This document shows, piece by piece, positions 18,127 through 36,479 of a stretch of DNA of 64,000 nt. Origin of the DNA: Acidobacteriota bacterium. Its GTDB lineage: Bacteria; Acidobacteriota; Terriglobia; Terriglobales; Acidobacteriaceae. Position numbers and translations under genes: made by a program. The notes beneath the pieces are model-generated. The model did no database searches. It saw nothing but the letters and a program-made list of their open reading frames with translations, and had not been told where the DNA came from. Location of the stretch: NCBI GenBank assembly GCA_021793405.1, contig JAJYSV010000012.1, positions 1 through 64,000 of the forward strand. The letters run 5' to 3'. The stretch's first letter is position 1. Every line of letters starts with the position of its first letter.

Positions 18127-19557
18127 TTGAAAGACCAGCATGTTACACGCCGCGATTTGATACGCCGAGTCGGGGTTTCGGCGGCTGCTGGGCTGGCCAT
18201 GGGGCTGCCAGGGATCTCGCAATCACAACCTCCCGCGCAATCGCAGACTCCTTCCCCGGAGGGGGAAAAGACACCCAAACGCGAAAGTGAAGTTGCCCAG
18301 AAATATCCCCATCCTCCCGGGCAATTCATCAATCGTCCCCTGACTCAGATCTCCACCGTAGTCGATACGATGCTGGACGATATGGGAGGACGTGGCACCG
18401 CCTACTTCTATGAGCAGGCACATCCGCTTACTGGACTGGTCCGAGATCATGCGCCGGCAATCGGTATCGCGGAAAGTCGCGTAGCCAGCATTGCAGCCAC
18501 TGGCTTTGGCCTAAGCGCGCTCTGCATCGCAGCCCAGCGCAAATACATGTTGCCTTCCATCTGCGAACAACGGGTCGAAACCACGCTGGCATTCCTGTTG
18601 GAACAATGTCCGCATGTCCATGGATTTCTTTATCATTTTCTCGACATTGAGAGCGGCGAACGGCTCTTCGGCTCCGAACTTTCTTCCATCGACACATCCC
18701 TTCTGCTCTGCGGCATTCTGTTATGCCGCCAGTATTTCAGTGGCAATCTTCGCATTCACGCGCTGGCGACTACCCTATACGAACGCGTTGATTGGAAATG
18801 GATGTTGAACGGCAGCGACACGCTGTCGATGGGATGGCTGCCGGAATCCGGATTCATCCCGTACCGATGGGACGTCTATGCCGAAATGCTCACAATGTTG
18901 CTGATGGCGATCGGGGCGCCCCGCAATGCCATTCCATCCAGCACGTGGAATGCGGTCAGCCGTCCGGTCATCGAGTTTGGTGGCATCAACTTTATCAGCG
19001 GCGTGGCGCCAATCTTCACCCATCAATATGCTCAAGCGTGGTGCGATTTTCGGAATCTGCGCGATCGACATGCCAATTACTTCCTCAATTCCATTGCCGC
19101 AACCCGGGCCCACCAACTATTCTGTCTCACTCTCGGTCGTCAGTTCCCATGGATGGACCAGAACCTGTGGGGAATCAGCGCTTCCGAATCCCCGACCGGA
19201 TATCGCGTATGGGGAGGGCCGCCGGAATTTGGCGGTATCGATGGAACGATTGTTCCCTCCGCAACGGCGGGCTCGCTGGTATTTTTGCCCGCCGAGTGTG
19301 CTCATGTACTGTTTTCTATCCGGGAGAAATACGGCGAAAAAGCCTGGACTCGGTATGGATTTATCGATGCTTTTCAGCCGCAGACCAACTGGTATGCTGA
19401 GGATCAACTCGGCATCGATATAGGAATCAGCGTCCTCATGGCGGAGAACCTGCGCACCGGCTTTTGCTGGAATTACTTCATGCGGAACACGGAAATCACC
19501 AATGCCATGCAGATGGTTGGATTCGAGGCCGACTCCGGAGACTGCGGCGCTTTCTAG
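18127..19557 (+). CDS. Tat-exported glycoamylase-like (GH144/GH189-type) protein
   Basis: A 476-residue protein that starts at TTG with AAGGA eleven bases before. The N-terminus carries a twin-arginine signal (TRRDLIRR, then GVSAAAGLAMG), so it is exported folded. The mature part matches the glycoamylase-like (PF10091) fold: FLYHFLDIESG, SELSSIDTSLLLCG, YERVDWKWM, GFIPYRWDVYAEML and a C-terminal WYAEDQLGIDIGI. Family members include endo-beta-1,2-glucanases, and the cyclising domain of cyclic beta-1,2-glucan synthases is related. A periplasmic beta-1,2-glucan hydrolase or transglycosylase is a reasonable hypothesis given the synthase-like gene 11 kb away; the activity is not shown by sequence alone. 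Confidence 0.75.
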   Translation: MKDQHVTRRDLIRRVGVSAAAGLAMGLPGISQSQPPAQSQTPSPEGEKTPKRESEVAQKYPHPPGQFINRPLTQISTVVDTMLDDMGGRGTAYFYEQAHPLTGLVRDHAPAIGIAESRVASIAATGFGLSALCIAAQRKYMLPSICEQRVETTLAFLLEQCPHVHGFLYHFLDIESGERLFGSELSSIDTSLLLCGILLCRQYFSGNLRIHALATTLYERVDWKWMLNGSDTLSMGWLPESGFIPYRWDVYAEMLTMLLMAIGAPRNAIPSSTWNAVSRPVIEFGGINFISGVAPIFTHQYAQAWCDFRNLRDRHANYFLNSIAATRAHQLFCLTLGRQFPWMDQNLWGISASESPTGYRVWGGPPEFGGIDGTIVPSATAGSLVFLPAECAHVLFSIREKYGEKAWTRYGFIDAFQPQTNWYAEDQLGIDIGISVLMAENLRTGFCWNYFMRNTEITNAMQMVGFEADSGDCGAF

Positions 19558-19617: not shown

Positions 19618-21855
19618 TTATTCGCCGACCTGCCATGGAACACCGATCACTTTGGATAGCTTGATATCTCGAGATGAGCTTCCCACCATGATTTTTACTT
19701 TGCCGCTTTCAAGAGACCATTGTTTCTTGGATGTATCCCAATACATCAGCGATTTTTCCGTCAAAGGCATTACAACGGTTTTCTTCTGTCCGGCCGGCAC
19801 GTTCACCCGTTGAAATCCTTCCAGTTCCAGATCCGGCATCGGTATTTTGGAATGGATGTGCTGGACATACATTTGAACGACTTCATCTCCAGAACGCTGA
19901 CCGGTATTTTGCACCTGCACGCTGACATCAATCGATTTCCCAGGAAATAGCCTCGACGCGCTCGTCTGCAGATTCGAGTAGGCAAACGTGGTGTAGCTCA
20001 GCCCATATCCGAAGGGAAACAATGGACTGCCGTGAAAGTACATGTAGGTGCGGCCATCCCGGATGTCGTAATCCATTATGGGTGGTAGTTGCTGCATCGA
20101 TTTTGGCCATGTAACCACCAGGCGGCCAGCGGGATCGTAATCGCCAAAAATTACATCGGCGAGGGCGTCGCCTTCCTCTTCGCTATTGTTCGCCACATGC
20201 AAAATAGATGGAATATGCCGCTTCGTCCAGTTGATGGTGTACGGGAAACTGGAAACCAGCACAACAATCGTACGCGGATTTGCCGCATAGACAGCCTGGA
20301 TCAGTTTTTCCTGGGATGGCTTTAGATGGATTTCCTGCCGATCGACGGCTTCCTGCCCCTCAGTCGGATCGGGACAAGGCAGAGTGTCGGTGCGTTTGTG
20401 GCACATCGGTCGATTGCCTACGACTACGATGGCAACATCGGAGGTCCGGGCTAGCCGCACCGCCGCGTCCTCGTTCGCGCTATAGCGAACGTCGACGCGC
20501 GAGCCCACTTTGTTTCGGATGCCTTGGACAGGCGTGACAGCAAAGGGCGGCGTGCCGCTATAGCCGTCTAAATACACAACGTTTGCCAGAGGCCCAACAA
20601 TAGCGATCGATTTTATCGACGATATATCGAGCGGCAAAAGATGGGGCGAATCTTTTAGTAGTACGATCGATTCCCGGGTAACTTGCAGCGCCAACGCTTT
20701 GCTGGACTCCTCATCCCAGGGTGCGGGCGCTTTGTCCGCCTTGATTTGCGTGTAAGGGTCAAGCATTGGAGGATCCAGGAAACCCAAACGGATCATGACT
20801 CGCAAAACGCCCTGCAGATTCTGGTCGATGTCCGCTTCCGTAATCAGCTTCTTCTGCAAGGCATCCTTGATCGCGTCCTGATACGAATTCAGAAACTGAT
20901 TGACTCCGGCGTGGATCGATCCCGCGACGGCTTCAGCCATGTTGGGATAGTACTTGTGTTTTGTCACCATAAACGTAACCGCGCCGCGGTCCGTGTCGAT
21001 CATGCCGTTGAATCCCCACCGCTGCATCAGCAAGTCCCTCAACAGCGGGCTTGCGGCCATGGGAATTCCATTAACTGCGTTATACGCAGTCATAATCGCA
21101 TTCGCTCGGCCCTGCTCAATCGCCATGCGGAATGGAGCGGAGTAATATTCATGCAATAGCCGATCATCGAAATTTGACGAAGACCCTGCGCGCCCATCCT
21201 CATTGCTATTCGCGAGGAAATGTTTGACCAGAGAGGCTGTCAACCAGGTTCGAGGATCGTCCCCTTGCAGCCCTTTTACAAATGCAACCGACATGGTGCC
21301 CACGAGGTAAGGGTCTTCTCCGTAGGATTCCTCCGATCTTCCCCAGCGCGGGTCGCGTGCCAAGTCGGCGTTGGGAGCACGCACAATCAACCCGCCGCGA
21401 TCGAAACTCTGGAATATATAACGTGCCTCGTGGCCTTCTTCGGCTGCAACTTTTTCGATCAGCGTAGGGTTCCAAGTCTCACCCAGGCCTACCGGCTGCG
21501 GGAACTGAGTGGTCGGGATCGTCGATGTGCCGCCAAACGGACCGGGAGCGCCTGGTGACTTGCGGCCCCAGTTGTTCGGCCCTCCCATCGCCAGGCCATG
21601 CAGTCCCTCAAATTGCCCGCTCGACCCGGGTATACTGTCGATTTTCCCGGATCCATAAATACCAAGGCGAGGCACATTCAGACTCTTCCCCAACAGATCG
21701 ATCTTCTCCTGCAGTGTCAAAAGTGACAGAACATTCTGAATGCGCTTGTCTGTGGGAAGGTTTTGGTTTTGAAAGGGGTAGTTATATTGGCCCAGCAGAG
21801 ACGGCCCCATTACGACGAGCAGGAAGAGCACCATAACCGCTTGGATCGTTTTCAA
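19618..21855 (-). CDS. Glycoside hydrolase family 3 beta-glucosidase
   Basis: A 745-residue secreted enzyme with a Sec signal peptide (KTIQAVMVLFLLVVMGPSLLG). The GH3 barrel has RAPNADLARDPRWGRSEESYGEDPYL and KHFLANSNE, and the nucleophile is the Asp in IDTDRGA (about residue 288; most relatives have SDWGA). The second alpha/beta domain and a C-terminal fibronectin-like domain (GDEVVQMYVQ) complete the usual BglX-like layout. It begins with TTG behind AGGAG at six bases. It lies 48 bases after treY on the same strand, so probably the last gene of the trehalose operon. The exact linkage cleaved is unknown; sophorose (beta-1,2) would fit the neighbourhood. Confidence 0.9.
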   Translation of the reverse strand: MKTIQAVMVLFLLVVMGPSLLGQYNYPFQNQNLPTDKRIQNVLSLLTLQEKIDLLGKSLNVPRLGIYGSGKIDSIPGSSGQFEGLHGLAMGGPNNWGRKSPGAPGPFGGTSTIPTTQFPQPVGLGETWNPTLIEKVAAEEGHEARYIFQSFDRGGLIVRAPNADLARDPRWGRSEESYGEDPYLVGTMSVAFVKGLQGDDPRTWLTASLVKHFLANSNEDGRAGSSSNFDDRLLHEYYSAPFRMAIEQGRANAIMTAYNAVNGIPMAASPLLRDLLMQRWGFNGMIDTDRGAVTFMVTKHKYYPNMAEAVAGSIHAGVNQFLNSYQDAIKDALQKKLITEADIDQNLQGVLRVMIRLGFLDPPMLDPYTQIKADKAPAPWDEESSKALALQVTRESIVLLKDSPHLLPLDISSIKSIAIVGPLANVVYLDGYSGTPPFAVTPVQGIRNKVGSRVDVRYSANEDAAVRLARTSDVAIVVVGNRPMCHKRTDTLPCPDPTEGQEAVDRQEIHLKPSQEKLIQAVYAANPRTIVVLVSSFPYTINWTKRHIPSILHVANNSEEEGDALADVIFGDYDPAGRLVVTWPKSMQQLPPIMDYDIRDGRTYMYFHGSPLFPFGYGLSYTTFAYSNLQTSASRLFPGKSIDVSVQVQNTGQRSGDEVVQMYVQHIHSKIPMPDLELEGFQRVNVPAGQKKTVVMPLTEKSLMYWDTSKKQWSLESGKVKIMVGSSSRDIKLSKVIGVPWQVGE

Positions 21856-21903: not shown

Positions 21904-24810
21904 TTATCCGTCAGTACTCGGAGTGCCGAGAATCCAGACTGCGGGTAATGCACCCAAGACTTCTCCGGCAGGCAGCCGTGCCGCGCCATCGACATGATGC
22001 AGCGGGACCGCAGCTCCAGTAAGTACATTGGTGAATCTCATCCGCTGCAATCCATCGACATTTCCGAACACTGGCAATTTGATGATAGTCTCCTGCAAGC
22101 TTTTCTTCAGGTCTCCCAGCGCCTCAGGCGAAGATAACAAAGATGCAAACCAGCGGACCGCGACGGCCACTAATATTTTCCCGTCGTACTCGCGCCCAAA
22201 AGCCACCAGATGTTCCGTGTTTGGGCCTTCCACGCGCAGCGGCAAATAGCGTCCACGCGCGAGAAGTTCAGATTCTCGTTCGCGCAGACGCAGCCCCAGC
22301 GCCATGTACAGCAGCTTCACATCGCCAGTCCACCATGTCCGGCATAATTCCGAGACCGCATGGGCCCGCCGCTCGGGCGCGATCTTGGGAGCGGCGACGC
22401 GCTGCATCAATGAATGCAATCTCTGTTGGCGTGTTGCATAGTCGACCGGGCGGCGATTGTCTGGGTCCACCAGGCTCAGGTCCCACAACTCGCCTCCTTG
22501 ATATGTGTCAACGACGCCTGGGCTCATCAACTTCAAGGCGATCTGAGAAATCGACCCCCATGCGGCCAATATTGCGGCTCGCTCCGCAAACGGGACAAAC
22601 GATGCTAGAAAAGTGGAAGAAGACGGTCCGCGCAAGGTCTGCTCCACAAAATTGTCCACTGCCGTATCGTATTCATTCGACGGATTGATCCAACTGGTGT
22701 GGACTTTTGCCTCCTTGAGCGCCTTACTCATGAACGCCTTCATGCGGCTGACGATGTTTTCATCCGCCACTGTCTGACGCGGGGGCCACATTCCGAGCAG
22801 GTTTTGATAATACAGATATTCGTCTCCGGGATCGGGGGTAGGTTGGCCATTCACCAGGGTCTTCGCGGTGTCATTCACCTGCGACCAACGCAGCAGATTC
22901 GTTCTCCATTCCGCTGGCAACTCGGTCAGCGTATGGATGCGCATCCTTGCATCCTCACCGCGCTTGGTATCGTGCGTCGAGGTGGTCAGCATCGCATCCG
23001 GCCAGCGCTCCATGCGATGCATGTTGGCGTTGTGAAACTCCTGAGGGGATGTCGCTTTTCTTCCGGTTCCAGTGCCTACTTCGTTCAGCGAGGCCAGCGG
23101 ACTGTACCGGTAGAACACGGTATCTTCCATGCCCTTGGCCTGCACCGGGCTGGTGTATTGCTGAAATTTCATCGCAAATCGAAGACGTTGTGTGGCACTC
23201 TCCGCGGATTCATCTTGCTCGCACATGGGGCAAATGTGGGCCCGAATAAAGCCAAAAATAGAGGAATCGACATTTGGATTGCGCCGCATTGCTTGGCCGA
23301 TCGCCTCGTCGATTGCCATTTCGTCCGTTGTACTGAATCCACGTTTTGAAATATAGGTTCGATATACGGGGAAGCACGCGACCACCTCCCGCAACGCCTC
23401 CTGCAGACCATCCAGAGTAAAATCTCGGCTTCGCCGGTTCTGTTCAGAAAGACGGTTAAGTTCGTGGGCTAGCACATTCAGTTCACTGGCCATCGAAGAC
23501 GCGGTAATCAATTTCTTAGCGTTGTATACGACGTCTCGATCCGGCTTCACGCGTCCGCGAAAGTGCAGGTAGATCCGGTCAATTTCCGAGAGATTGTTTT
23601 CTTCCACCCATAACCCGTTCGAGAGGGCCAGGAATTCATAGCCGGTCGTGCCATCCACCGGCCACTCAGGGCTCAGCCATTCCTGTCGCGCAAGAATCTT
23701 CTCGACGATCACATAGAGAGGCTTGCCTGCTTTCGCAGTGACTTCGCGTAACTGTAACAGATATTGTTGCGGATCGAGCAGCCCATCAATATGGTCGAGA
23801 CGAACGCCATCGATCGCTCCCTGCTCCGCCAATTCAATCAATTTCGCATGGGCAGCTTGAAACAACGGCTCATATTCCATGCGGATGCCGATCAAATCAT
23901 TGATGTCGAAGAAGCGCCGGTAGTTTATTTCCTGCATCGCCGTGCGCCAATACGATAACCGATACGGCTGTTGTTCCAAAAGTTCATGCAGTAAGTCGAA
24001 CGATTCAGGTTGACCCGGCGTTCCATTGAACTCCTTGATCACAGCTTCCAGATGACGTTGGAGAGCGGGGTTTGTCCGGATCAAATGCACCAGTCGATGA
24101 GTTGCTATATTGGTCTCACGCTCGCGATCGGCACGCGCTTTCGGCCCAGCCTGCTGATAGTTGGGAATATGGTCCAGCTGAAATAGGACGCTTTCGTATT
24201 CCTGACGCGTCGAAAAATCGATATCTGTGAATGCTGCAGATTCCTCCCATCGATGACGCAGCAGGAGTTTAATCTGACGCGGATTAAGCGGCAAATTGTA
24301 ATCGCTATAAAGCAGGCAAAACTCTCCCTCGCGGTATTCAATGCGGAGTTTGCCGGATTCCAGAACGTCACCATATTGGCCGCCTAGAATCGCCAGCAGC
24401 ACTTTGCCGTGAAGATTGGAATTGACCGGATACCAATCGACGTCAAAATACTCCGAGACAGGAGAGGAAGGTCCGTTGGCGAGAACACTGCGCCACCACT
24501 GGTTCCATTGCGGATGGGCGCTCATGTGATTGGGAACGAAATCGATAACCATTCCCATGCCCTTGCTATGCAGCGCCTGAACTAGAGAATTGAACGCTTC
24601 TTCTCCTCCCAGTTCAGGATTGATCCGTGCGAAATCGCAAATATCATAGCCGCTGAGGCTGCCGGGGCGGGCTTCGAAAATCGGTGAAGCGTAGATGTGG
24701 CTGATACCAAGATCGTAGAAATACGGGACCAGGGCCTCGGCATCCGAGAATCGAAAATCCTTCGTGAATTGCAGTCGGTAGGTAGCGCTTACCCTTCTGC
24801 GAGCGGTCAT
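21904..24810 (-). CDS. treY: Maltooligosyl trehalose synthase
   Basis: Converts the reducing end of a maltodextrin to an alpha,alpha-1,1 bond, the first step of the TreY-TreZ route to trehalose. A GH13 enzyme of 968 residues, starting with the family's SATYRLQFTKDF and showing YASPIFEARPGS, DFVPNHM, the nucleophile region DGVRLDHIDGL and acid YVIVEKIL. A SWINPSNEYD segment is also typical. The start overlaps the treZ stop (ATGA). The length is at the upper end of the family because of inserted helical segments. Confidence 0.95.
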   Translation of the reverse strand: MTARRRVSATYRLQFTKDFRFSDAEALVPYFYDLGISHIYASPIFEARPGSLSGYDICDFARINPELGGEEAFNSLVQALHSKGMGMVIDFVPNHMSAHPQWNQWWRSVLANGPSSPVSEYFDVDWYPVNSNLHGKVLLAILGGQYGDVLESGKLRIEYREGEFCLLYSDYNLPLNPRQIKLLLRHRWEESAAFTDIDFSTRQEYESVLFQLDHIPNYQQAGPKARADRERETNIATHRLVHLIRTNPALQRHLEAVIKEFNGTPGQPESFDLLHELLEQQPYRLSYWRTAMQEINYRRFFDINDLIGIRMEYEPLFQAAHAKLIELAEQGAIDGVRLDHIDGLLDPQQYLLQLREVTAKAGKPLYVIVEKILARQEWLSPEWPVDGTTGYEFLALSNGLWVEENNLSEIDRIYLHFRGRVKPDRDVVYNAKKLITASSMASELNVLAHELNRLSEQNRRSRDFTLDGLQEALREVVACFPVYRTYISKRGFSTTDEMAIDEAIGQAMRRNPNVDSSIFGFIRAHICPMCEQDESAESATQRLRFAMKFQQYTSPVQAKGMEDTVFYRYSPLASLNEVGTGTGRKATSPQEFHNANMHRMERWPDAMLTTSTHDTKRGEDARMRIHTLTELPAEWRTNLLRWSQVNDTAKTLVNGQPTPDPGDEYLYYQNLLGMWPPRQTVADENIVSRMKAFMSKALKEAKVHTSWINPSNEYDTAVDNFVEQTLRGPSSSTFLASFVPFAERAAILAAWGSISQIALKLMSPGVVDTYQGGELWDLSLVDPDNRRPVDYATRQQRLHSLMQRVAAPKIAPERRAHAVSELCRTWWTGDVKLLYMALGLRLRERESELLARGRYLPLRVEGPNTEHLVAFGREYDGKILVAVAVRWFASLLSSPEALGDLKKSLQETIIKLPVFGNVDGLQRMRFTNVLTGAAVPLHHVDGAARLPAGEVLGALPAVWILGTPSTDG

Positions 24811-26720
24811 GTGAATATCTTCCCAGAGATAGGCGCAAAATCTTCGCTGGCGAAAATCACAGCGCCAGCTCGTTCCATAGTGAGCTTACCTGCGTTGGAT
24901 TGCCAAATGACCGGGCAGGCGTCGGAGGTATAGGTTGTGTCTTCGCTGCTGAAGCAAAGAGCCATGTCTGTCCACGCCTCATCCTGTGCGGCTGCCGGAC
25001 CCTCGAGCGCCACGATAGCAGAAACGCGGCCAAAAGCGGATTCCCATTGGGAATGAATCATTTTGGCATTCAACGCTTGGCATAATCGGAATTTAAAACT
25101 GGACAGCAAATATCTGCGAACATGTAATAGATCCCGATACCAATTCAAACACGCGACGTGTAATGGGCGCTGGCGGGCCGTCCAATCTAGCTTGCTCAGT
25201 CGAAATGTTTCTTTCCTTTGAGGGTCAGGAAGAGTGCCGCGGCGAGTCTCGTCTGCAAAGGCGGAAAAATGTTCAAACTCTTTACGTCGTCCTTCAGTGA
25301 CCATGCGGCCCAGTTCCTCATTGTGATCGGTGAAATACAGAAATGGCTCCGATGCTGCCCATTCCTGACCCATAAATAGTAAGGGAATTTCCGGCGCGAA
25401 CAGCAAAAGCGCGCTGGCTGCAAGATATGCGGGGTAAGAAATCTGAGACGACAAGCGCTCTCCGAAGGCGCGATTGCCGATCTGGTCGTGATTTTGAATG
25501 CAGAATACGCGCGACTCGTAACTTAGTCCGTCAGGTTTGGTACCGCGCCTATGGCCAGAATGGCGGGCGAATTGTCCGTTGAAAAACCATCCGTCGCGAA
25601 TCGTTCTGGCGATGCTTTCCGTTGTCCCGTCGAAATCCCGGTAATACCCGTCGCTGTCTCCAGCGAGCCGGTGGCGCATGTGATGATGAAAATCGTCAGA
25701 CCAGACTGCATCGAAACCATGTCCGCCCTGTTCCGATGGGAGCACAAGTCTGCGCTCATTACGCTCGTCTTCCGCGATGATAAAAATGGTTCTTCCTAGC
25801 GAGTGCGCCGCCGCATGGACGCGCTTCGTTAGATCCGTCAGAAACGGCGGGTCACTGTCATCCTGAATGGCGTGCGTTGCGTCCACCCTCAACCCATCCA
25901 CGCGGTAGTCGTAAATCCAGGCTAGGGCGCTCTCAATAAAATATGCTCGTACCTTATCGCCGCCGTCGCCGTCGAAATTCAACCCGTCGCCCCATGGCGT
26001 CTTATGTTTACTGGAATAAAACCCCGGCGCGAAGACGGACTGATACGCGCCGTCAGGTCCGAGGTGGTTATAAACCACATCCAGGCAAACAGCGATTCCT
26101 CGCTGGTGCGCTTCCTCAACCAGCTTGCGAAGATCGTCCGGGGTTCCATAACTGTGGGCCGGCGCATAGGGAAAAACTCCGTCGTAGCCCCAGTTATATT
26201 CGCCTGCAAAGTCCGCAATCGGCATCAATTCGATCGCATTGATACCCAGTTGTTGCAGGCCATCGAGCTTGTCGATCACTGCCAAAAATGTTCCTGCAGG
26301 GGTGAATGTCCCAACGTGTAGTTCGTAGAAAACCAACTCGCGCAGCGATGGCGACTGGAACTCGGTACTTTTCCATGCGAAGCAGTTGTGGTCGATGACC
26401 TGCGATGGGCCGTGAACGCCCAATGGCTGGAAACGAGAGGCAGGATCCGGATACGGACCTCTTCCGTTGATCCTGAACCAGTAACGCGCGCCGGAACCGA
26501 CCCCTTCCACGCGCACCTGATGCACTCCGCACGCATCCGGCAACATAGGAGTGCAGCGGGATGGTTCCCCGTCGAGAACTAACTCGATATTCGCATTCGG
26601 ACCGGCCCAGACACGAAACAGGCAACCGCCTTCCTGAATGGAAGCGCCTAAGCTTGCTACCCAGGAGTTTGCACGGACGCGGGGAGCTTGCGATTCGATT
26701 GCATGGGAAATGACTTTCAC
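24807..26720 (-). CDS. treZ: Maltooligosyl trehalose trehalohydrolase
   Basis: Releases trehalose from maltooligosyl trehalose. A GH13 protein of 637 residues with an N-terminal CBM48-like domain (GGCLFRVWAGPN), then ELHVGTFTPAGTF, DVVYNHLGPDGAY, nucleophile in GLRVDATHAI (about residue 277) and acid in IIAEDERNE (about residue 315), all typical of TreZ. The GTG start overlaps the GH15 stop, and its stop overlaps treY, so the three form a coupled unit. With treY it needs a maltodextrin or glycogen donor; no glycogen genes are in the window. Confidence 0.95.
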   Translation of the reverse strand: MKVISHAIESQAPRVRANSWVASLGASIQEGGCLFRVWAGPNANIELVLDGEPSRCTPMLPDACGVHQVRVEGVGSGARYWFRINGRGPYPDPASRFQPLGVHGPSQVIDHNCFAWKSTEFQSPSLRELVFYELHVGTFTPAGTFLAVIDKLDGLQQLGINAIELMPIADFAGEYNWGYDGVFPYAPAHSYGTPDDLRKLVEEAHQRGIAVCLDVVYNHLGPDGAYQSVFAPGFYSSKHKTPWGDGLNFDGDGGDKVRAYFIESALAWIYDYRVDGLRVDATHAIQDDSDPPFLTDLTKRVHAAAHSLGRTIFIIAEDERNERRLVLPSEQGGHGFDAVWSDDFHHHMRHRLAGDSDGYYRDFDGTTESIARTIRDGWFFNGQFARHSGHRRGTKPDGLSYESRVFCIQNHDQIGNRAFGERLSSQISYPAYLAASALLLFAPEIPLLFMGQEWAASEPFLYFTDHNEELGRMVTEGRRKEFEHFSAFADETRRGTLPDPQRKETFRLSKLDWTARQRPLHVACLNWYRDLLHVRRYLLSSFKFRLCQALNAKMIHSQWESAFGRVSAIVALEGPAAAQDEAWTDMALCFSSEDTTYTSDACPVIWQSNAGKLTMERAGAVIFASEDFAPISGKIFT

Positions 26721-28531
26721 CTCCGCAGTTTTTCATCTAAATGCAGAGCCGCACTTATCAGCCCTAGATGCGTGAACGCTTGTGGGAAGTTGCCAAGCGC
26801 GCTGCCCGTTGAACCGATCTCCTCGGAATACAGACCGAGCGGATTCCCATACGTAAGCATTTTTTCAAAGATGAACCGGGCCTCGTCGAGTCGGTCAGCG
26901 CGCGCCAGTGCATCTACCAGCCAGAACGTGCACATGCTGAATGTGCCTTCGTGCCCAGTCAAGCCATCTTTGCTTGCGAGCTCTCCACTCAGTTCATATC
27001 TATGCACCAGGCTGTCGGAAACGAGCTTCTCCATGATTTTGTCGATCGTACTGAGCATGCGCGGATCCTTCGGCGCGATGAACATCACAATGGGCATCAT
27101 CAGATTGCTCGCGTCCAGGGATTTCGAGTCATAGGATTGCGTGAAGCTTTGCTGCTTAGGATCCCAGCCATCCTTCATAATCGAGGCAAAGATGCGATCT
27201 CGTTCTGTTTCCAGCTTCACGCGGTCGAGCGGAAGGCTTCGCTGGCTTGCGAGCCGAATGCCCCGATCGAGAGCGACCCAGCATTGCAGTTTGGAATACA
27301 CGAACTGCTGTCGCTCACTACGCACTTCCCACAGGCCATCGTCCGGCTGGGTCCAGTTATCCGCAACCCACAGCAGCACCCCATGGATACGCATCCATAG
27401 ATCGTAGGAGATGGGAGAGACGTGTTTGTCGTAAAGATAAATCGCGTCCATCATCTCGCCGTAGATATCCAATTGCAACTGGTTGGAAGCCGCGTTGCCG
27501 ACTCGGACTGGTCGCGAGTTTCGATAACCCGTCATGTTCTCCAGGGTATATTCGGTTAAGCCGATCTCGCCGTCGATGCTATACATCGTGTTTAGCGGAC
27601 CCTGCGCACCCGCTTGCTCATGGATTCGCTTGGCCAGCCATTCAATGAAGGCAGTCGCCTCGTCAGTAAAGCCGAGACGCACCAGCGAAAATACAGTGAA
27701 CGCCGTGTCGCGTATCCACGTGTACCGGTAGTCCCAGTTGCGGACTCCACCGATTTCCTCCGGCAGACTGCATGTGGGTGCAGCCACCATTGCGCCCGTG
27801 GGATGATGGGTCAGCAATTTGAGCATCAGCGCAGAGCGAACAACCATCTCTCGCCAACGGCCTTCATACTTGCAATGCGACAGCCATTCGCGCCAGAATT
27901 CCAGAGTTTCATTCATCAGCCTGTCTCCGTCCACTGGGGCTTTGAAGTCGGCTCCGTCCTCTCCGGTCAGATATCGCAGGGCGAACTCCGCGGTTTCTCC
28001 CGGCTGCAGCGTAAATTGCTGGATCGCTTTTCCGTCCTCAATTCGCCATTCGCCGGGACCGAGAACAACCATACGATCTTTTTCCGCTTCGAATAGGACT
28101 CCCCCTTCCGTTAGAGTGGCTCGGTGCGAAGTCCGGGCATAGTTGAAAGCGGGAGCACACTCCAGCCGAAACCTCATTGCTCCGCGTACCGCTCTGGCAA
28201 TGCGCACAATCTCATGAATAACGGATTCGCTCCGCCGGTGCTTTTGCTGGCGAACCGGCATAAAGTCGATCACCTCGCCAACCCCTCCCGCGCATAGAAA
28301 TCGAGTCAGCAAAACGTTGGTTTCCGGCATATACATCTGGCGGTTGGTTCCGGCCTCCTCTGCCGCCAGCTTGAAATGTCCGCCTTTTTTCTCATCCAAT
28401 AGGGTGGCGAACACGCTGGGCGAGTCAAACTGCGGCAGGCAGCACCAATCGATGTCGCCATCCATCGCTACCAGTGCCACGGTATGCAGATCGCCAATTA
28501 CCCCACAGGATTCAATCGGTCTTTGGGCCAT
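26717..28531 (-). CDS. Glycoside hydrolase family 15 protein (glucoamylase or trehalase)
   Basis: A 604-residue cytoplasmic-type protein without signal peptide. It begins with the PIESCGVIGDLHTVALV motif of bacterial GH15 proteins, has the FDSPSVFATLLD segment, then the (alpha/alpha)6 barrel motifs NWDYRYTWIRDTAF and GLWEVR, and ends in TFSMCTFWLVDALAR. This group contains both glucoamylases and trehalases; being translationally coupled to treZ it may trim maltodextrins or recycle trehalose. The ATG at 28531 is preferred over an in-frame TTG at 28537. It is the first gene of the leftward operon, divergent from the exporter gene. Confidence 0.9.
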   Translation of the reverse strand: MAQRPIESCGVIGDLHTVALVAMDGDIDWCCLPQFDSPSVFATLLDEKKGGHFKLAAEEAGTNRQMYMPETNVLLTRFLCAGGVGEVIDFMPVRQQKHRRSESVIHEIVRIARAVRGAMRFRLECAPAFNYARTSHRATLTEGGVLFEAEKDRMVVLGPGEWRIEDGKAIQQFTLQPGETAEFALRYLTGEDGADFKAPVDGDRLMNETLEFWREWLSHCKYEGRWREMVVRSALMLKLLTHHPTGAMVAAPTCSLPEEIGGVRNWDYRYTWIRDTAFTVFSLVRLGFTDEATAFIEWLAKRIHEQAGAQGPLNTMYSIDGEIGLTEYTLENMTGYRNSRPVRVGNAASNQLQLDIYGEMMDAIYLYDKHVSPISYDLWMRIHGVLLWVADNWTQPDDGLWEVRSERQQFVYSKLQCWVALDRGIRLASQRSLPLDRVKLETERDRIFASIMKDGWDPKQQSFTQSYDSKSLDASNLMMPIVMFIAPKDPRMLSTIDKIMEKLVSDSLVHRYELSGELASKDGLTGHEGTFSMCTFWLVDALARADRLDEARFIFEKMLTYGNPLGLYSEEIGSTGSALGNFPQAFTHLGLISAALHLDEKLRR

Positions 28532-28728
28532 ATTCAAGTAATTTTAAGAATTGTCATAGCATTGCGGAAGGGCTAACCTAAACAGTCCATATCTCATCTA
28601 AACTCTACGTATCGGAACATCCAGCATCTTATTCGACAAGTGCCTGGCGGCCCCAGTTAATATCTCCATTGTAGTGGTCGAAATATTTTTGCTCTCATTC
28701 ACTATTAGTTTGTCCTGACTTTATATAG
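28532..28728. promoter_or_regulatory. Divergent promoter region, trehalose operon / glucan exporter operon
   Basis: 197 AT-rich bases between the GH15 operon and the exporter/synthase pair, necessarily holding both promoters. A TATATAG sequence lies only three bases before the annotated exporter ATG, so either that promoter element is fortuitous or the true start is downstream. No operator palindrome was recognised. Confidence 0.4.
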
Positions 28729-30576
28729 ATGCGGCATCGGCCTCCAGTGACGGAAACTACGAAGAACAAATCGTATGGAGATACATGGCGCTCGCGGCTG
28801 AGCGCCATGCGCAACATCCCCCCGGTGATGCGCATGGTTTGGGAGTGCGGACCGAAGACAGTCGTTTGGTCCGTGGCGCTTCGCATTGCACTGGCTCTGA
28901 CGCCTGTGGCGATTCTGAAAGTGTCTTATTGGCTTATCCAGGCAGTCGTCAACGGCTTCCGATACCACACACCTTTGCCGGCTTATTTCTGGTGGGTCGT
29001 AGGCCTGGAATTCGGATTGGCCTCGCTTGCCGCTATCTTGAGCCGTGGGGTTGGATTTTGCGACAGTCTGCTGGGCGATCTTTACCTGCAACACATTAGC
29101 GTTCGCGTAATGGAGCATGCTTCGCAGCTCGACATTACAGCATTTGAAAATCCGGATTATTACGATCGTCTGGAGCGGGCCAAGGCGCAGGCCACGGACC
29201 GCATCGCCATGATCCAGATGGTTGGCACGCTAATCCAACAGGTCTTAACCACGCTGTTTCTATCTCTGTATATCGCGAGCTTCTCTCCCTGGCTGCTGCT
29301 GCTGCTGATCGCTGGAACAATTCCCGCCTTGCTGGGAGAAAGCCACTTCGCATTTTTGGGATACGCCAAGAATTTCATGCAGACGCCTCTGCGCCGCAAA
29401 ATGGATTATCTGCGGGACCTAGGAGGCAGCAAAGAAGCAGCAAAAGAACTGAAGCTTTTTGGATTGCGGGATTTCCTGGTCGGCAGTTTTCGAGGAATGG
29501 CGAACACAATTTTCGATCAGAATGTCGATCTCTCGAAGCGCCGCCTCGCTGCTGGCTCGCTCCTTTCTCTGCTGGCAACCGCTGGGTATTACAGCGCCTA
29601 TGCACTGGTTTTGCTGGACACGATCCGAGGAAAATTCACAGTTGCTGGCCTCGCCGTTTTGATCAATGCGATCCTTCAAGTAAGCGCGAACCTGCAGCAA
29701 ATCTTCGTCAATGCCTCTGGCGTTGCCGATCAGGCTTTATTCTTGACCGATCTTCTCGGCTTCTTTGCAATGGAACCTACTGTCCGCTCCAAGCCGAACG
29801 CCATCAAAATTCCGCGGCCCATACGACAGGGCGTCGAGTTCCGGAACGTCTCATTTGCCTATCCCGGGACCACGCGCCTGGTGTTGAAGGACTTCAATTT
29901 TCATCTGCGTCCGGGAGAACGGGTGGCCCTGATCGGAGAAAATGGAGAGGGCAAAACCACCATCGTAAAGCTCATCACACGTCTGTATGACCCCACTGAG
30001 GGTCAGATCCTCATCGACGGCTTCGATCTGCGGGATTATGACCTGGAAGACCTCTGCCATGAGATCGGGGTCATCTTCCAGGATTTTATGAGGTACGAAA
30101 TGACGGCCAGAGACAATATCGCTGTCGGCCGCATTGAAGAACGCGACCGGTTGGACCGGATCGAAACCGCGGCCCAGATGAGCCTGGCAGATGAGGTGAT
30201 TGCGCGCCTCTCTGGTGGAATCGAACAGCAATTAGGCCGTCGCTTCGAGGGCGGCGTCGATCTGTCTGGAGGCGAGTGGCAGCGGATGGCGCTGGCACGC
30301 GCTTACCTGCGAGATGCACAGTTGCTGATCTTGGATGAACCGACTGCGGCGCTCGATGCACGCAGCGAGCAGGAAGTCTTTCAGCGTTTCGCGGAGCTGA
30401 CGCGAGGAAAAATGGCGCTGCTGATCTCCCATCGCTTCTCGACCGTGAAAATGACCGATCGCATCGTCGTTCTTTCGCACGGAGTGTTGACCGAAGAAGG
30501 AACGCACGAGGAATTGATCCAGCGTGGCGGCCTGTACGCTGAGATGTTTGAAATGCAGGCAGCGAGCTACCGATGA
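28729..30576 (+). CDS. ABC exporter, fused membrane and ATPase domains (NdvA-like position)
   Basis: A 615-residue type IV ABC half-exporter. Six membrane segments span roughly residues 40-330, followed by an ATPase domain with Walker A GENGEGKTT, signature LSGGEWQR, Walker B LLILDEPTAALD and the switch His in LISHRFST. It would act as a homodimer moving a substrate out of the cytoplasm. Its stop overlaps the start of the glucan-synthase-like gene (ATGA). In rhizobia NdvA exports the cyclic beta-1,2-glucan made by NdvB, so the pairing suggests a glucan exporter; the assignment rests on context, as ABCB-type exporters are varied. There is no ribosome site at this ATG; an in-frame ATG at 28807 is an alternative. 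Confidence 0.85.
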   Translation: MRHRPPVTETTKNKSYGDTWRSRLSAMRNIPPVMRMVWECGPKTVVWSVALRIALALTPVAILKVSYWLIQAVVNGFRYHTPLPAYFWWVVGLEFGLASLAAILSRGVGFCDSLLGDLYLQHISVRVMEHASQLDITAFENPDYYDRLERAKAQATDRIAMIQMVGTLIQQVLTTLFLSLYIASFSPWLLLLLIAGTIPALLGESHFAFLGYAKNFMQTPLRRKMDYLRDLGGSKEAAKELKLFGLRDFLVGSFRGMANTIFDQNVDLSKRRLAAGSLLSLLATAGYYSAYALVLLDTIRGKFTVAGLAVLINAILQVSANLQQIFVNASGVADQALFLTDLLGFFAMEPTVRSKPNAIKIPRPIRQGVEFRNVSFAYPGTTRLVLKDFNFHLRPGERVALIGENGEGKTTIVKLITRLYDPTEGQILIDGFDLRDYDLEDLCHEIGVIFQDFMRYEMTARDNIAVGRIEERDRLDRIETAAQMSLADEVIARLSGGIEQQLGRRFEGGVDLSGGEWQRMALARAYLRDAQLLILDEPTAALDARSEQEVFQRFAELTRGKMALLISHRFSTVKMTDRIVVLSHGVLTEEGTHEELIQRGGLYAEMFEMQAASYR

Positions 30577-33500
30577 ACTCTCCGAACATGACCGACCTGA
30601 ACACGCAAGGCCGCGCTTTCGCGAGCCGGCAGGCAATGATCATGCAGCACTCCAGCACAAAACCATTTAAACAACACACTCTTCTGATGGTGGCCTCCGC
30701 GTTTGCATTGGCGCGTTATACAGAGGAGCAACCCCGCGGGCAGCAAGCGACGGGGAAAGAAGAGAAAGCACCCGGCATCCAGCGCCTGGAAGGCAGCACG
30801 CGTCTGTTGCGAGCCTCCGCGATCGAAGTTCAGAATGCGGTGCGCATACTCGTGAGATTGCCATTTGCACGCAGCGTTACCGGACAGGAGGCTCCAAGAA
30901 TTCTCGGTGTCGCACAAGCGCTGTTCACAGCATCGACGTATCAGTGGAGCCTATCGGGACTTTCCACTTTTCTTGAAGGATTTCAAGTCGAAGAGCCCCT
31001 CAGTCTGCGGGAATTGTGGTTCTTTCCGGTTGCACTGAAAATGGCATTGTTGGAAGAAATTCTCGCCCAGGCCCCCGGAGCGTTCAGCAATCAGCCGACA
31101 AGCGACGCCGCTCTGAATGCGTCCCTGCTTTGCCTGCATGAGGTCAGTCTGCCAGTATGGGCGAACATTCTGGAGCCACTGGTTCCTTTTGAAGACGTCC
31201 TGCGACAGGATCCAGCTAACACGTATGCGCGCATGGATTTCGAAAGCCGCGAGATGTATCGCATCGCGGTTGCCAAGTTAGCGGAGCGATCTCCCTCGAA
31301 CGAAGTGGAGGTAGCCGGTATGGCGCTGACGATGGCACAAAATGCATCCCAGCAGCCAAATGTCAACGAGCGCATTACGGCACGCTGTTCTCATATCGGT
31401 TACTACCTCGTCGATCAGGGTTTAAGCGAACTGCGAAAACGTTGCGAGTTTCGACCTCGAATCTTGGATCACGTGCGATCCGTGCTGCGCTCGTATCCAG
31501 ACGATTTTTATATCGGCGGAATAGAAACCATCGCGCTCCTGGCCATGGCTGCGATCATTCTTCCCTTGGTACCTCTTTATAATCCGCTGGGAGGCTTGGC
31601 CATCGCATTCCTATTGCTGCTTCTGCCCGCTTCGCAAGGCGCAGTGGAGTTGATGAATCACACCCTCAGCGCCATTCTGAAACCGCAGACGCTGCCAAAA
31701 CTCGATTTCTCTGAAGGCATTCCCGATGACTGCAAGACGCTCGTGGCTGTGCCCACGCTTTTGCTGAACGAGCGGCAGGTCCGCGATCTCGTCGACGAAC
31801 TGGAAGTGCGGAGTCTGGCCAATCAAGACCCGAATATCCACTTTGCCCTGATCACTGATCTGCCGGACTCGGTGGAGAAGCCACTGGATCGCGATACCGA
31901 TCCCTTGGTGCTGCTGGCCGGGCAATTGATTGACGACTTGAACCGGCGTTATTCCAGCGCACAATGTGGCGGTTTCTTGATGCTGCACCGTCATCGCATC
32001 TATAACCCACGGCAGGGCGTCTGGATGGGCTGGGAACGCAAGCGCGGGAAATTGCTGGATCTGAATCGCCTGGTGATGGGTGGCATGGACTGCTTCCCAT
32101 ACAAGGCCGGCGATACGTCCATTCTGCGTGGAATGCGCTATGTATTGACACTGGATTCTGACACAAAACTGCCGCGCGACTCGGTGCACCGGATGGTTGG
32201 CGCGATGGCGCATCCACTCAACAGGGCCATCCTTGATCCGCAGCGGAGAATCGTAACCCAGGGCTATGGCATCATGCAGCCGCGAGTTGGCATCGCCGTG
32301 CATTCCTTCGCGCGTTCGCGCCTTGCGGCCATTTATTCTGGCCAGACGGGCTTTGATATCTATACGCGGGCCATCTCAGACGTCTATCAGGACCTGTACG
32401 GAGAAGGCATTTTCACTGGCAAGGGACTGTACGAAATAGAAATTCTCCACCGGGTGTTGGATCGTCGCTTCCCGCAGAATTCTCTTTTGAGTCATGATTT
32501 GATCGAGGGAGCCTATGCCCGCGTCGGCTTGTTGACCGATGTCGAAGTGATGGATGATTATCCGTCCCATTACAGCGCTCAAAATCGACGGAAACACCGG
32601 TGGGTCCGCGGTGATTGGCAAATCTTGCGTTGGCTGCTGGGTCGCGTTCCCAGTGATTCGGGAAAACTTGTTCCAAACCCGACTTCCAACATTTCCCGAT
32701 GGAAAATCTTCGACAATCTGAGACGCAGTCTAGTGGAACCGGCCACTTTTCTTCTGCTGGTTGCTGGTTGGTTGTGGTTGCCTGGAACCGCTCGTTATTG
32801 GACCATCGCCACTCTGTTGGTCGTGTTCGTTCCGGTCCTTGTCCAGTTCCTGTTTTCCCTGGTTCGGGCGAGCCTGGCGGAACAGCGCGGTTACGTCCGT
32901 CAGGCAATTCGCGATTCCCTGGTGCTGCTGTTTTCGACGGCTCTGAATTTTGTATTTCTCGCGCATCAGACTTTGCTGATGTTCGACGCAATAGTACGCT
33001 CCCTGGTCCGAAGTTTCGTCACCGGCAAACGTCTTTTGGAATGGGAAACCGCGGCAGAGGCGGAACTGGGAGGGAGTAAACGAACGCCGGTCGAGATCAC
33101 GATGGGACTTGTGCCCCTGCTATCGGCGGCGCTGCTGATCCTTGTCTTGCTCGTTCGTCCGCACGCATTGCCATGGGCGGCGCCCATCCTGATTCTTTGG
33201 TCCCTTGCAAAACCCATAACCCTATGGCTCAATCGTTCTCCGGGTGGACTTGCGGTCCAACTTTCCTTGCAAGACGAGCGATTCATGCGGAAAATTGCGT
33301 GGCGCACCTGGCGGTATTTCGTCCAATATTCCAATCCAGGCAATCACGCACTGGCGCCAGACAATGTACAGGAAGAAGGCAACGTCCAAGCCTATCGCAT
33401 TTCCCCAACCAACGCCGGATTGCAGTTGAATGCGCGACAGGCTGCCGTGCTTCTTGGGTACCTGACGTTGCCGGAATACGCGGAACAAACGCTCGCAAAC

Positions 33501-35030
33501 CTGCATACGCTTGATGAAATTCCCAAGTGGAAGGGTCATCTGCTGAACTGGTACACCACGGACACGCTGGAACCGATCGCGCCATATATCGCCTCCACAG
33601 TCGACAGCGGGAATTTTTTGGCTTCCTTATGCAGTCTGCGCATGGGCACGCTGGAGTTGTTGCAGTCTCCCATGCTGCCCTCGCTTCGGGAAGGTCTGCT
33701 CGACATTGTTGAGGATGTCCAGACGCCGTCCACGCTTGAGTCCCAAATAAAATCCGCATTGCGGATGGAAAAGAGCGCAGAACAAAACACATGGCTCAGA
33801 GCACTGCTTGGATTGGAGCTGCCGTTCAACTCCGATAAGCCCGACGAGATTGAATCTCGACTGCGCTCGCTTTTTGCTTTGGTCGAGATGTATTTACCGT
33901 GGCTGCTTCCGAAATTCTCAGTGCTAGACGGCGTGTCTGCTGGCGGAGAAGATCACCCACTCGATTACTACTCGCCGGAAAATGCATTGGATACTTGCCG
34001 TGCCCTACGGACATTGTGGATGCAAAGGGTACAGGACTCTGCTGAGAAAAATACCCCTCTCGCGAACGAGCTGATCGTTGCTCTGGATGCCAGCGAACGG
34101 TGGTTGAACGGATTGATTGAAAGTCTGCGGTCTATTGCGGAGATCTCCGAGCGCCTGTTTCAGGCCACCGAATATCAGGAGATGCTCGATCCTTATCGCC
34201 GGCTGCTGACGATCGGGTACGACACGGCTAGAAATTGTCGACTGGAGTCCTGCTATGATCTGCTGGCCTCGGAAGCGCGGACTGCCATCTTCCTTGCAAT
34301 TGCCAAGGGCGATACGCTGCAGGAAAGCTGGTTCAAGCTCGGCCGCAAGACAACAATGATCGATGGCAACCCAGTATTGCTCTCATGGTCCGGCACGATG
34401 TTTGAGTACATGATGCCGACTCTCTGGATGCAAACATCGCCCGGAACTTTGTTGGCGCAATCTTTGCCTGGAGCGGTCCGCGCACAGCAGGAATATGTCG
34501 CCCACAAGAGGATGCCGTGGGGAATCTCGGAAGCCTGCCATAGCCAGCGCGACGCGGCAGGAAACTATCAATACCATGCGTTCGGAGTACCCACGTTGGC
34601 ATTGAATCCGACAGCGGAAGGCTCGCTCGTGATAGCGCCGTATGCCACCGTGCTTGCACTGGAAGCGGACCCCGTTCGCGCGCTGGCCAATTTACACAAG
34701 ATGGAGAAACTCGGCTGGCTGGGAGATTTCGGCTTCTATGAGTCGGCGGATTATTCCACCAACACCGAACACGAAACAGGGATGCGATATACTCTGGTCC
34801 GCTCCTGGATGGTCCATCACCAGGGTATGTCTTTGCTCGCGATTACGAACCTTCTCGCCGATAAAGCCTTCCAACGCTGGTTTCATAGCGACCCTCGGAT
34901 CCGGGCTACTGAACTTCTCCTGCACGAGAAGCCTGTCCAGATCGTCGCCACTCAGGACACGCCTCGCGTAGGGAAAATTACCTTTCAGCCGACTAGGGTG
35001 AATCGACGAACAAGCGTCGAACATAATTGA
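30573..35030 (+). CDS. Cyclic beta-1,2-glucan synthase-like protein lacking the GH94 domain
   Basis: A 1485-residue membrane protein. N-terminal helical region, membrane segments near 315-355, a GT84 glycosyltransferase domain with LDSD near residue 527, LHRVLDRRFPQNSLLSHDLIEG and RKHRWVRGDWQ near 672-682, further membrane segments to about 890 including TGKRLLEWETAAEAE, and a C-terminal glycoamylase-like (GH189-type) region with SWSGTMFEYMMP, WGISEACHSQRD and SWMVHHQGMSL. Rhizobial NdvB and Brucella Cgs continue with a GH94 phosphorylase domain that limits chain length, reaching about 2800 residues. Here the protein stops about 20 residues after the glycoamylase region and the opposite-strand gene begins 30 bases on, so GH94 is absent rather than split off. 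The product is probably a beta-1,2-glucan of different size control. Coupled to the exporter gene upstream. Confidence 0.88.
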   Translation: MNSPNMTDLNTQGRAFASRQAMIMQHSSTKPFKQHTLLMVASAFALARYTEEQPRGQQATGKEEKAPGIQRLEGSTRLLRASAIEVQNAVRILVRLPFARSVTGQEAPRILGVAQALFTASTYQWSLSGLSTFLEGFQVEEPLSLRELWFFPVALKMALLEEILAQAPGAFSNQPTSDAALNASLLCLHEVSLPVWANILEPLVPFEDVLRQDPANTYARMDFESREMYRIAVAKLAERSPSNEVEVAGMALTMAQNASQQPNVNERITARCSHIGYYLVDQGLSELRKRCEFRPRILDHVRSVLRSYPDDFYIGGIETIALLAMAAIILPLVPLYNPLGGLAIAFLLLLLPASQGAVELMNHTLSAILKPQTLPKLDFSEGIPDDCKTLVAVPTLLLNERQVRDLVDELEVRSLANQDPNIHFALITDLPDSVEKPLDRDTDPLVLLAGQLIDDLNRRYSSAQCGGFLMLHRHRIYNPRQGVWMGWERKRGKLLDLNRLVMGGMDCFPYKAGDTSILRGMRYVLTLDSDTKLPRDSVHRMVGAMAHPLNRAILDPQRRIVTQGYGIMQPRVGIAVHSFARSRLAAIYSGQTGFDIYTRAISDVYQDLYGEGIFTGKGLYEIEILHRVLDRRFPQNSLLSHDLIEGAYARVGLLTDVEVMDDYPSHYSAQNRRKHRWVRGDWQILRWLLGRVPSDSGKLVPNPTSNISRWKIFDNLRRSLVEPATFLLLVAGWLWLPGTARYWTIATLLVVFVPVLVQFLFSLVRASLAEQRGYVRQAIRDSLVLLFSTALNFVFLAHQTLLMFDAIVRSLVRSFVTGKRLLEWETAAEAELGGSKRTPVEITMGLVPLLSAALLILVLLVRPHALPWAAPILILWSLAKPITLWLNRSPGGLAVQLSLQDERFMRKIAWRTWRYFVQYSNPGNHALAPDNVQEEGNVQAYRISPTNAGLQLNARQAAVLLGYLTLPEYAEQTLANLHTLDEIPKWKGHLLNWYTTDTLEPIAPYIASTVDSGNFLASLCSLRMGTLELLQSPMLPSLREGLLDIVEDVQTPSTLESQIKSALRMEKSAEQNTWLRALLGLELPFNSDKPDEIESRLRSLFALVEMYLPWLLPKFSVLDGVSAGGEDHPLDYYSPENALDTCRALRTLWMQRVQDSAEKNTPLANELIVALDASERWLNGLIESLRSIAEISERLFQATEYQEMLDPYRRLLTIGYDTARNCRLESCYDLLASEARTAIFLAIAKGDTLQESWFKLGRKTTMIDGNPVLLSWSGTMFEYMMPTLWMQTSPGTLLAQSLPGAVRAQQEYVAHKRMPWGISEACHSQRDAAGNYQYHAFGVPTLALNPTAEGSLVIAPYATVLALEADPVRALANLHKMEKLGWLGDFGFYESADYSTNTEHETGMRYTLVRSWMVHHQGMSLLAITNLLADKAFQRWFHSDPRIRATELLLHEKPVQIVATQDTPRVGKITFQPTRVNRRTSVEHN

Positions 35031-35060: not shown

Positions 35061-36479
35061 CTAAGTCGACACCTTAGGGCCGTTCGTCCTGCTGCGCATC
35101 AAGGCGCGCTTCAAGACAATTTCAAGCGCTGCTTTTTGCCGGTCGTATTCTTCAGGAGCGATACCGCCCTCCAGTCGCTCAGTTTCCAACGCAAACAGTT
35201 CGTTCTTCAATGCTTCCAGCAGGTTCGATTGAGGTTGTTCCATGATGTCCCTGCGCCCAACCGAGGTTCCAGACCGAGCGCTGGAGACGCCAGGTTGCGC
35301 CGCTGCCGGCGTGGCGCTGGCCACCTTCGAAGCTGAGCCCGTGGCCGGGGCTGTAGTCGGACTGGTCCTCTTCATCGAAATGCCCGCGCCCACCGCCAGC
35401 AAGACTACCACCAGGGAGACGATCCACCATTGATACTTGTGCAGCGGGTCCGGCGTGCCAATGGGTGCGCCCAATCCGATTCCAGGACGACTACTGTTAT
35501 CCGCAGCCCCCTGTGCTCCTGCCTCCGGGCCCATCGCGCCTGGCGACTGCCCCGCGCTGCTCCCACCGTTGTTGGCTCCTTCTTGTCCGCCGGCATTTTC
35601 CTCCGGTAGCAGTCCGGTGCCGGAGACCGCAAACGACAGCTTGGTTTGCGGGGTCACATTTCTGGCCAAATAGGTCTGGACTTTGATATCTTCATCGATT
35701 GGCTGAAACGCACTGGCTGGCGTCGCCGTAAATTGCATGCTCTTAGGCAGAATGATCGCGAGGTTATCTACTGGCGCAGCCACTCGCGGCTGAAACTGAA
35801 AGGTGCCTGAATAAGGTAGCTGATAACTGACCTGAAAGCGGGTCTCTCCTGGACGGAGGGGAAAAACAAAGCTGTAGTCGCCCGGAGGCCCAAGCGGTGT
35901 CGGTGGAGTTTGCAGTGGCATGCTACCCGGACCTTGAGCGGCCGCGGAAACAATCTGGGCGTTCTTTGGCAAATAAATTTCATAGGCGCGCGGACCATAT
36001 TGGGTCCGCGGGGGAGAGGAAGCGTTCTTCACGAAATAGTTCTCGATCACGCTTAGGCCATTGGGGCTGGCTTCAATCCGCACTACATCGGCTTCCGTGG
36101 AAACACCTTGCACCTTGGCGGCCGCATCGTAGACATCCACATCCACCGTTTGGGTGCCGGTTGGTACCGACTTGAAGTAGGTGGCCTTATCGTGCGTCAC
36201 GCGTAACAAGTGCATTGGATCGCTGTCAGCGGCATCCAGCGAGAAATGACCGCGGGCGTCGGTCTTGGTCTGCGCAACGACGTCCATGCCCAGCCGGACC
36301 AAGGCCACCGTGTCCCCGGCGGCCGGCTTCTTTGTCGTCTGGTTTGTCACGGTTCCAGAAATGGGTGCGGCTATAACCACAGAAGCGCCGCCCAGCAAGA
36401 TCACCGCCAGCAGCAGAGGAGTGAAGCCAGCCGCAGTGGCCCGCAGGCACTTTGGCAAAAATACATTCGAAATTCTCAT
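35061..36479 (-). CDS. Exported membrane-anchored protein with CcmI-like C-terminus
   Basis: A 472-residue protein of unknown function. A signal peptide (TPLLLAVILLGGASVVIAAP) is followed by a carboxypeptidase-regulatory-like beta domain (GTVTNQTTKKPAAGDTV), a longer beta-rich periplasmic part, a Gly/Asn/Ala-rich linker, one membrane helix (WWIVSLVVVLLAVGAGISM, about residue 355) and a cytoplasmic helical hairpin at the end. That hairpin (LKNELFALETERLEGGIAPEEYDRQ is the region at about 420-450) resembles the one in the small CcmI-like protein just upstream. It is the last gene of the cytochrome c maturation operon and may help apocytochrome handling; this is context only. Confidence 0.75.
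   Translation of the reverse strand: MRISNVFLPKCLRATAAGFTPLLLAVILLGGASVVIAAPISGTVTNQTTKKPAAGDTVALVRLGMDVVAQTKTDARGHFSLDAADSDPMHLLRVTHDKATYFKSVPTGTQTVDVDVYDAAAKVQGVSTEADVVRIEASPNGLSVIENYFVKNASSPPRTQYGPRAYEIYLPKNAQIVSAAAQGPGSMPLQTPPTPLGPPGDYSFVFPLRPGETRFQVSYQLPYSGTFQFQPRVAAPVDNLAIILPKSMQFTATPASAFQPIDEDIKVQTYLARNVTPQTKLSFAVSGTGLLPEENAGGQEGANNGGSSAGQSPGAMGPEAGAQGAADNSSRPGIGLGAPIGTPDPLHKYQWWIVSLVVVLLAVGAGISMKRTSPTTAPATGSASKVASATPAAAQPGVSSARSGTSVGRRDIMEQPQSNLLEALKNELFALETERLEGGIAPEEYDRQKAALEIVLKRALMRSRTNGPKVST

Follow-up and report, generated by a model that had tools for sequence, protein, structure and literature searches.

Positions 30573-35030 (forward strand) of a 64,000-nucleotide stretch of an Acidobacteriota genome (family Acidobacteriaceae; contig JAJYSV010000012.1, positions 1 to 64,000; hereafter the window) encode what is probably a working cyclic beta-1,2-glucan synthase that naturally lacks a GH94 phosphorylase domain, is co-encoded with an ATP-binding cassette (ABC) exporter, and makes larger or more varied rings. 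The first-pass annotation of the window had described this open reading frame (ORF; start codon ATG, 1485 amino acids (aa)) as a GT84 transferase joined to a glycoamylase-like cyclising region and ending where GH94 should begin, and that description stands on each count. Sequence searches matched the protein to Agrobacterium Cgs (8rf9/8rf0; E 1.6e-216) and, across residues 900-1460, to the cyclase domain of TiCGS (8wy1; E 4.9e-97). The sole Pfam match was PF10091 'Glycoamylase' (residues 1231-1439), with no GH94 found by that scan, and NCBIfam gave no match at E 0.001.

The N-terminal domain (30573-31502, about residues 1-310) resembles the helical scaffold of Cgs, and is followed by a hydrophobic block (31503-31661, residues 311-363) that probably forms the first two transmembrane segments (TM1-2). 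The GT84 domain (31719-32777, about residues 383-735) carries D429, D528, D530, D642, R676 and R679, the counterparts of Agrobacterium D527, D624, D626, D739, R773 and R776, and, as regards a possible loss of GT84 catalytic residues, no checked residue is absent. Within this domain, Y597 (32361-32363) maps to Y694, the priming tyrosine of Agrobacterium Cgs (PMC10901819), and is the predicted priming site. Further hydrophobic blocks (32787-33203, residues 739-877) are probably TM3-6, and six transmembrane helices in all would fit both the hydropathy blocks and the helices of the structure models. By alignment, the GH189 cyclisation domain (33270-34952, about residues 900-1460) retains the acid/base E1234 (34272-34274; TiCGS E1356) and the nucleophile E1320 (34530-34532; TiCGS E1442), and gives way to a short, low-confidence tail and stop (34953-35030) at the expected start of GH94. 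Reference residues for Cgs and TiCGS were taken from PMC10901819 and PMC10834661.

The same border emerges from structure prediction. An AlphaFold model of residues 1-700 has a mean predicted local distance difference test (pLDDT) score of 75.1, with residues 570-696 mostly below 50, and was matched by Foldseek to 8rf9 (E 7.7e-26, TMq 0.74); a model of residues 290-1485 has a mean pLDDT of 80, with the final 31 residues below 50. Cgs was the top Foldseek match for both. The second model superposes on Cgs residues 393-1524 (Z 52.9, 3.0 A, 1055 residues), and the modelled cyclase on 8wy1 (Z 60.6, 2.6 A, 557 residues). Because this alignment reaches Cgs residue 1524, and the phosphorylase part of Agrobacterium Cgs is placed from residue 1536 (PMC10901819), the synthase ends at a domain border. 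The neighbouring ORF on the opposite strand (35061-36479) does begin 30 bases past the synthase in coordinates, as had been noted, but it is the 3' end of that ORF, and not its start, that faces the synthase.

A local truncation or frameshift of the window's gene was considered as the source of the short form and rejected. From all searches, 172 synthase frames of 1200 aa or longer were pooled and deduplicated to 140 distinct sequences; every shorter frame, together with four other fragments or duplicates, had been removed beforehand (among them that of genome G041, a short gene missing its 5' end). Of the 140, 110 are short, the window's included, and 30 are long or clipped. The stop lies 7-45 residues past GH189 in all 102 short sequences, again including the window's, whose 3' end is visible (the stop is out of sight in the other 8 of 110, which run off the 3' end of the contig), and this shared end point excludes chance. 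The 97 short genes closed at both ends, the window's apart, span 1367-1673 aa from stop to stop (median 1509), against 2765-3002 aa for the frames of the 21 complete long genes. None of the 110 short sequences has lost any of the six GT84 residues or the priming tyrosine, seven positions in all; of the 109 that reach the GH189 columns, all retain both glutamates, and each of two flanking histidines is present in 108.

Short synthases come mostly from the window's own family, Acidobacteriaceae, with a few from elsewhere in Acidobacteriota. Among 280 candidate stretches, a contig scan found 268 relatives, of which the 80 best were kept; all are labelled as Acidobacteria or genera within that phylum, but, as these are the sequences nearest to the short query, their uniformly short outcome is partly one of selection, and searches of the family and phylum offer the fairer sample. 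In the family, 81 of 150 genomes gave a synthase match, of which 74 hold the short form and 7 a long or broken long form alone; these calls were made by hand from frame length and identity and include several fragments. It is thus not the case that homologues all carry GH94 and that the window's gene is a local exception. Both forms are held by G116, G124 and probably G131. Tallies over these 150 genomes assume that the synthase, GH94 and exporter searches drew the same genomes, and the listed handles agree. In the phylum sample, 82 of 297 genomes matched (20 in the window's family and 62 outside); frames of at least 2600 aa were found in 46 of the 62, and shorter frames in 16, the one of these inspected (G238) running off its stretch. 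Among these 46 is G296, which holds a closed short gene in addition to its long one. This genome, which is related to the window at phylum level only, carries a short synthase with exporter as well as a separate full-length synthase (L185 and L186). Within the window's order, in a different family, a closed short gene is present in G043 and the short gene already mentioned in G041, and G042 and G046 carry long genes; four short rows are labelled Sulfotelmatobacter, assigned by NCBI to another family.

A tree was built from 61 rows (32 short, chosen for diversity, and 29 of the 30 long or clipped), and in it the short rows, those of G043 and G296 included, form one side of a single branch (SH-aLRT 100). 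Rooting with GH144 placed the outgroup between the two forms, by way of very long branches (support 12 for the long side and 85 for the short), and favoured neither form as the older. The two-domain form may even be the older architecture, with GH94 a later addition in the long forms. The existence of similar short forms on proteobacterial plasmids was entertained and discarded, all 8 genes being long in the 8 of 131 matching plasmid records that were opened. Full-length synthases on six such plasmids (L165-L169, L171) are annotated 'glucoamylase family protein', and a universal stress protein gene lies directly before the synthase in five of the records (L165-L169).

The exporter ORF (28729-30576, forward strand) encodes 615 aa that, by family and structure matches, combine membrane and ATPase parts in a single chain, and it overlaps the synthase start by four bases (ATGA). 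The coupling that the first-pass annotation had read from this overlap proves to be conserved, with an exporter homologue upstream on the same strand in all 63 short loci that extend 1900 bases or more upstream, in 60 of them within strict spacing; at E 1e-8 such a homologue was found upstream in none of the 17 long loci that extend as far, whose genomes may hold an exporter elsewhere. At E 1e-150, the exporter is matched in 70 of the 74 family genomes that hold the short form, in 2 of the 76 others (Fisher p 6e-35, ignoring shared descent) and in 0 of the 7 that are long-only. Exporter and synthase distances are correlated over 60 loci (r 0.85, a value uncontrolled for species descent). The best-scoring solved relatives of the exporter are B-family transporters and MsbA. 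By gene order and co-occurrence, the exporter appears to be dedicated to the short synthase and would have glucan as its cargo, and the near-constant company of a natural short form and its own exporter would fit a system adapted to the lack of GH94.

A scheme can be proposed in which GT84 would glucosylate Y597 from UDP-glucose and then build a beta-1,2 chain in the cytoplasm, GH189 would cleave the chain, keep it bound on E1320 and close the ring by transglycosylation, and the co-encoded exporter would carry the ring into the periplasm. The predicted parts for priming, elongation and cyclisation are all retained, and the adjustment step alone appears to be missing. Phosphorolytic trimming would be absent, the reach of GH189, and perhaps also export, would determine chain length, and rings would therefore be expected to be larger or more varied than rhizobial ones. 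Precedents exist for cyclisation of this kind. The isolated TiCGS cyclase domain cyclises without GH94 and without hydrolysis, forming rings from long chains (PMC10834661), and it is reported to produce rings with a degree of polymerisation (DP) of 17-26 from linear glucan (PMC11842490). Expression in E. coli of a Brucella Cgs deprived of its phosphorylase domain yielded cyclic glucans with a lower mobility in thin-layer chromatography, which the authors read as larger (PMC11071196).

Several points weigh against a working synthase and exporter of this kind. The large Brucella rings were not seen in the medium when the Brucella transporter was present in E. coli (PMC11071196), and for this reason large rings may be hard to export. 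Agrobacterium Cgs lost its function in a growth assay when its C-terminal region was removed in whole or in part, a result that suggested a scaffold role (PMC10901819), and the short forms must manage without a C-terminal region of the Agrobacterium type. On the side of the exporter, its co-occurrence and co-divergence with the synthase both leave shared descent out of account; four of the 74 short-form genomes (G069, G074, G085 and G105, of 320-560 contigs each) have no exporter match, and two genomes (G078 and G138) have a match and no short synthase. The window's exporter also scores below both curated glucan-exporter cut-offs, with 180 bits against TIGR01192 (cut-off 585) and 232 bits against NF010178 (cut-off 733), and falls outside the NdvA/ChvA glucan exporters by curated family score; gene order and co-occurrence are what point to its cargo. 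The exporter relatives in the two genomes in which no short synthase was found lie at G078:C13:125658-127376 and G138:C19:17502-19340, that of G138 being 43% identical. A bolder proposal, that the short forms constitute a separate natural large-ring system that never uses phosphorolytic trimming, and whose co-evolved exporter passes rings of a kind for which the Brucella transporter seems poorly suited, can be offered tentatively, and is rather unlikely to hold.

A product other than large or varied rings has also to be considered. Ring size might be narrow, near DP 17-26, and fixed by GH189 itself, in which case loss of GH94 would matter little. This is improbable, although it draws on the size range of the isolated TiCGS cyclase and on an Agrobacterium mutant altered in the catalytic acid of the phosphorylase, whose growth was affected in only a minor way (PMC10901819); the products of Agrobacterium Cgs are, however, shortened by phosphate (PMC10901819), and the truncated Brucella enzyme yielded glucans that were read as larger. 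For the uncontrolled size that the first-pass annotation had suggested, the precedents point both ways, the Brucella truncation fitting larger rings and the TiCGS cyclase domain giving DP 17-26 by itself.

Far less probable is that the output is mostly linear beta-1,2-glucan, one of the products that the first-pass annotation had raised. GH189 can also transfer between molecules and so give linear products (PMC10834661), and a gene for a GH144-type beta-1,2-glucanase adjoins the exporter and synthase, on either strand, in 18 of 55 loci with room (19 of 57 when counted by tblastn on the same strand). However, the catalytic residues of GH189 are kept in the short forms and the isolated TiCGS domain cyclises without GH94, which together make a linear product unlikely; the family is described as transglycosylating without hydrolysis and making rings from long chains (PMC10834661). 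The window's own glucanase gene (18127-19557, forward strand) lies 12 kb from the synthase and encodes a 476-aa PF10091 protein that resembles GH144 beta-1,2-glucanases (XCC2207, 8xul; E 7.6e-57) and has a twin-arginine motif near its start, a Tat-type feature shared, by a simple pattern, by 22 of 32 glucanase proteins. Its relatives occur in 31 of 66 larger loci. If secreted, such an enzyme may recycle the glucan or remove linear by-products.

Trimming retained in trans by a separate GH94 gene is scarcely credible, some such gene passing the cut-off in 11 of 74 short-form family genomes but none in the other 63, and the window's genome (4.6 Mb in 137 contigs, given as 100% complete) yielding no match to either GH94 model, PF17167 or PF06165. 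A GH94 gene was likewise sought in the loci with a single query from a Sinorhizobium synthase (E 1e-8), which matched in none of the 110 short loci and in 26 of the 30 long or clipped ones, its own source among them; the four misses (L158, L160, L162 and L187) all end early. The contention that the domain had not been split off into another gene, nearby or distant, is borne out by these searches.

Other genes of the neighbourhood were surveyed. The glucanase gene faces a GH3 gene (19618-21855), a possible pair for beta-1,2-glucan breakdown 9-12 kb from the synthase. Positions 21904-28537 hold, on the opposite strand, an alpha-amylase-family gene (presumably TreY, judged by position), TreZ and a GH15 trehalase-like gene. 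Membership of this trehalose cluster in the system found no support, TreY and TreZ each occurring in 5 of 110 short loci and GH15 in 1 of 110, the window's included, in counts for which many short loci extend upstream by a few kb at most. Downstream of the short synthase, a GH39 protein (L053:8105-9748) is found in 14 of 66 loci and a large outer-membrane barrel protein (L056:13931-17455) in 13 of 66, each named from one member.

In the open-access literature searched, which did not extend to two papers on Brucella Cgs, no description of a natural GH94-less synthase was recognised. The short forms are an experiment of nature on how ring size is determined in cyclic beta-1,2-glucans. They likewise allow the need for GH94, as trimmer or as scaffold, to be tested, a question to which the truncations made in Agrobacterium and Brucella seem to give conflicting answers. 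They also suggest that a common group of soil Acidobacteria makes cyclic beta-1,2-glucan rings; should these prove larger, the pair of synthase and exporter could supply carbohydrate carriers of new sizes.

With Agrobacterium Cgs/ChvB (8rf9, 8rf0), NdvB and Brucella Cgs, the short form shares the N-terminal domain, the GT84 residues, the priming tyrosine, GH189 and the order of these parts; what separates them is the C-terminal GH94 phosphorylase, which serves length control in the known enzymes and is absent here. NdvA, ChvA and Cgt are ABC exporters that work with a cyclic glucan synthase, the role proposed for the window's exporter, although the latter scores far below the cut-offs for that type. 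The engineered Brucella Cgstr lacks the same part as the short form and still yields cyclic glucans, read as larger (PMC11071196), but it is a laboratory construct whose large rings were not seen in the medium, whereas the natural short form is paired with an exporter of its own. The cyclase domain of TiCGS (8wy1), founder of GH189 and active in vitro without GH94, has the fold and catalytic residues found in the window's synthase, with the difference that TiCGS was studied as an isolated domain and the window's protein would be a complete synthase.

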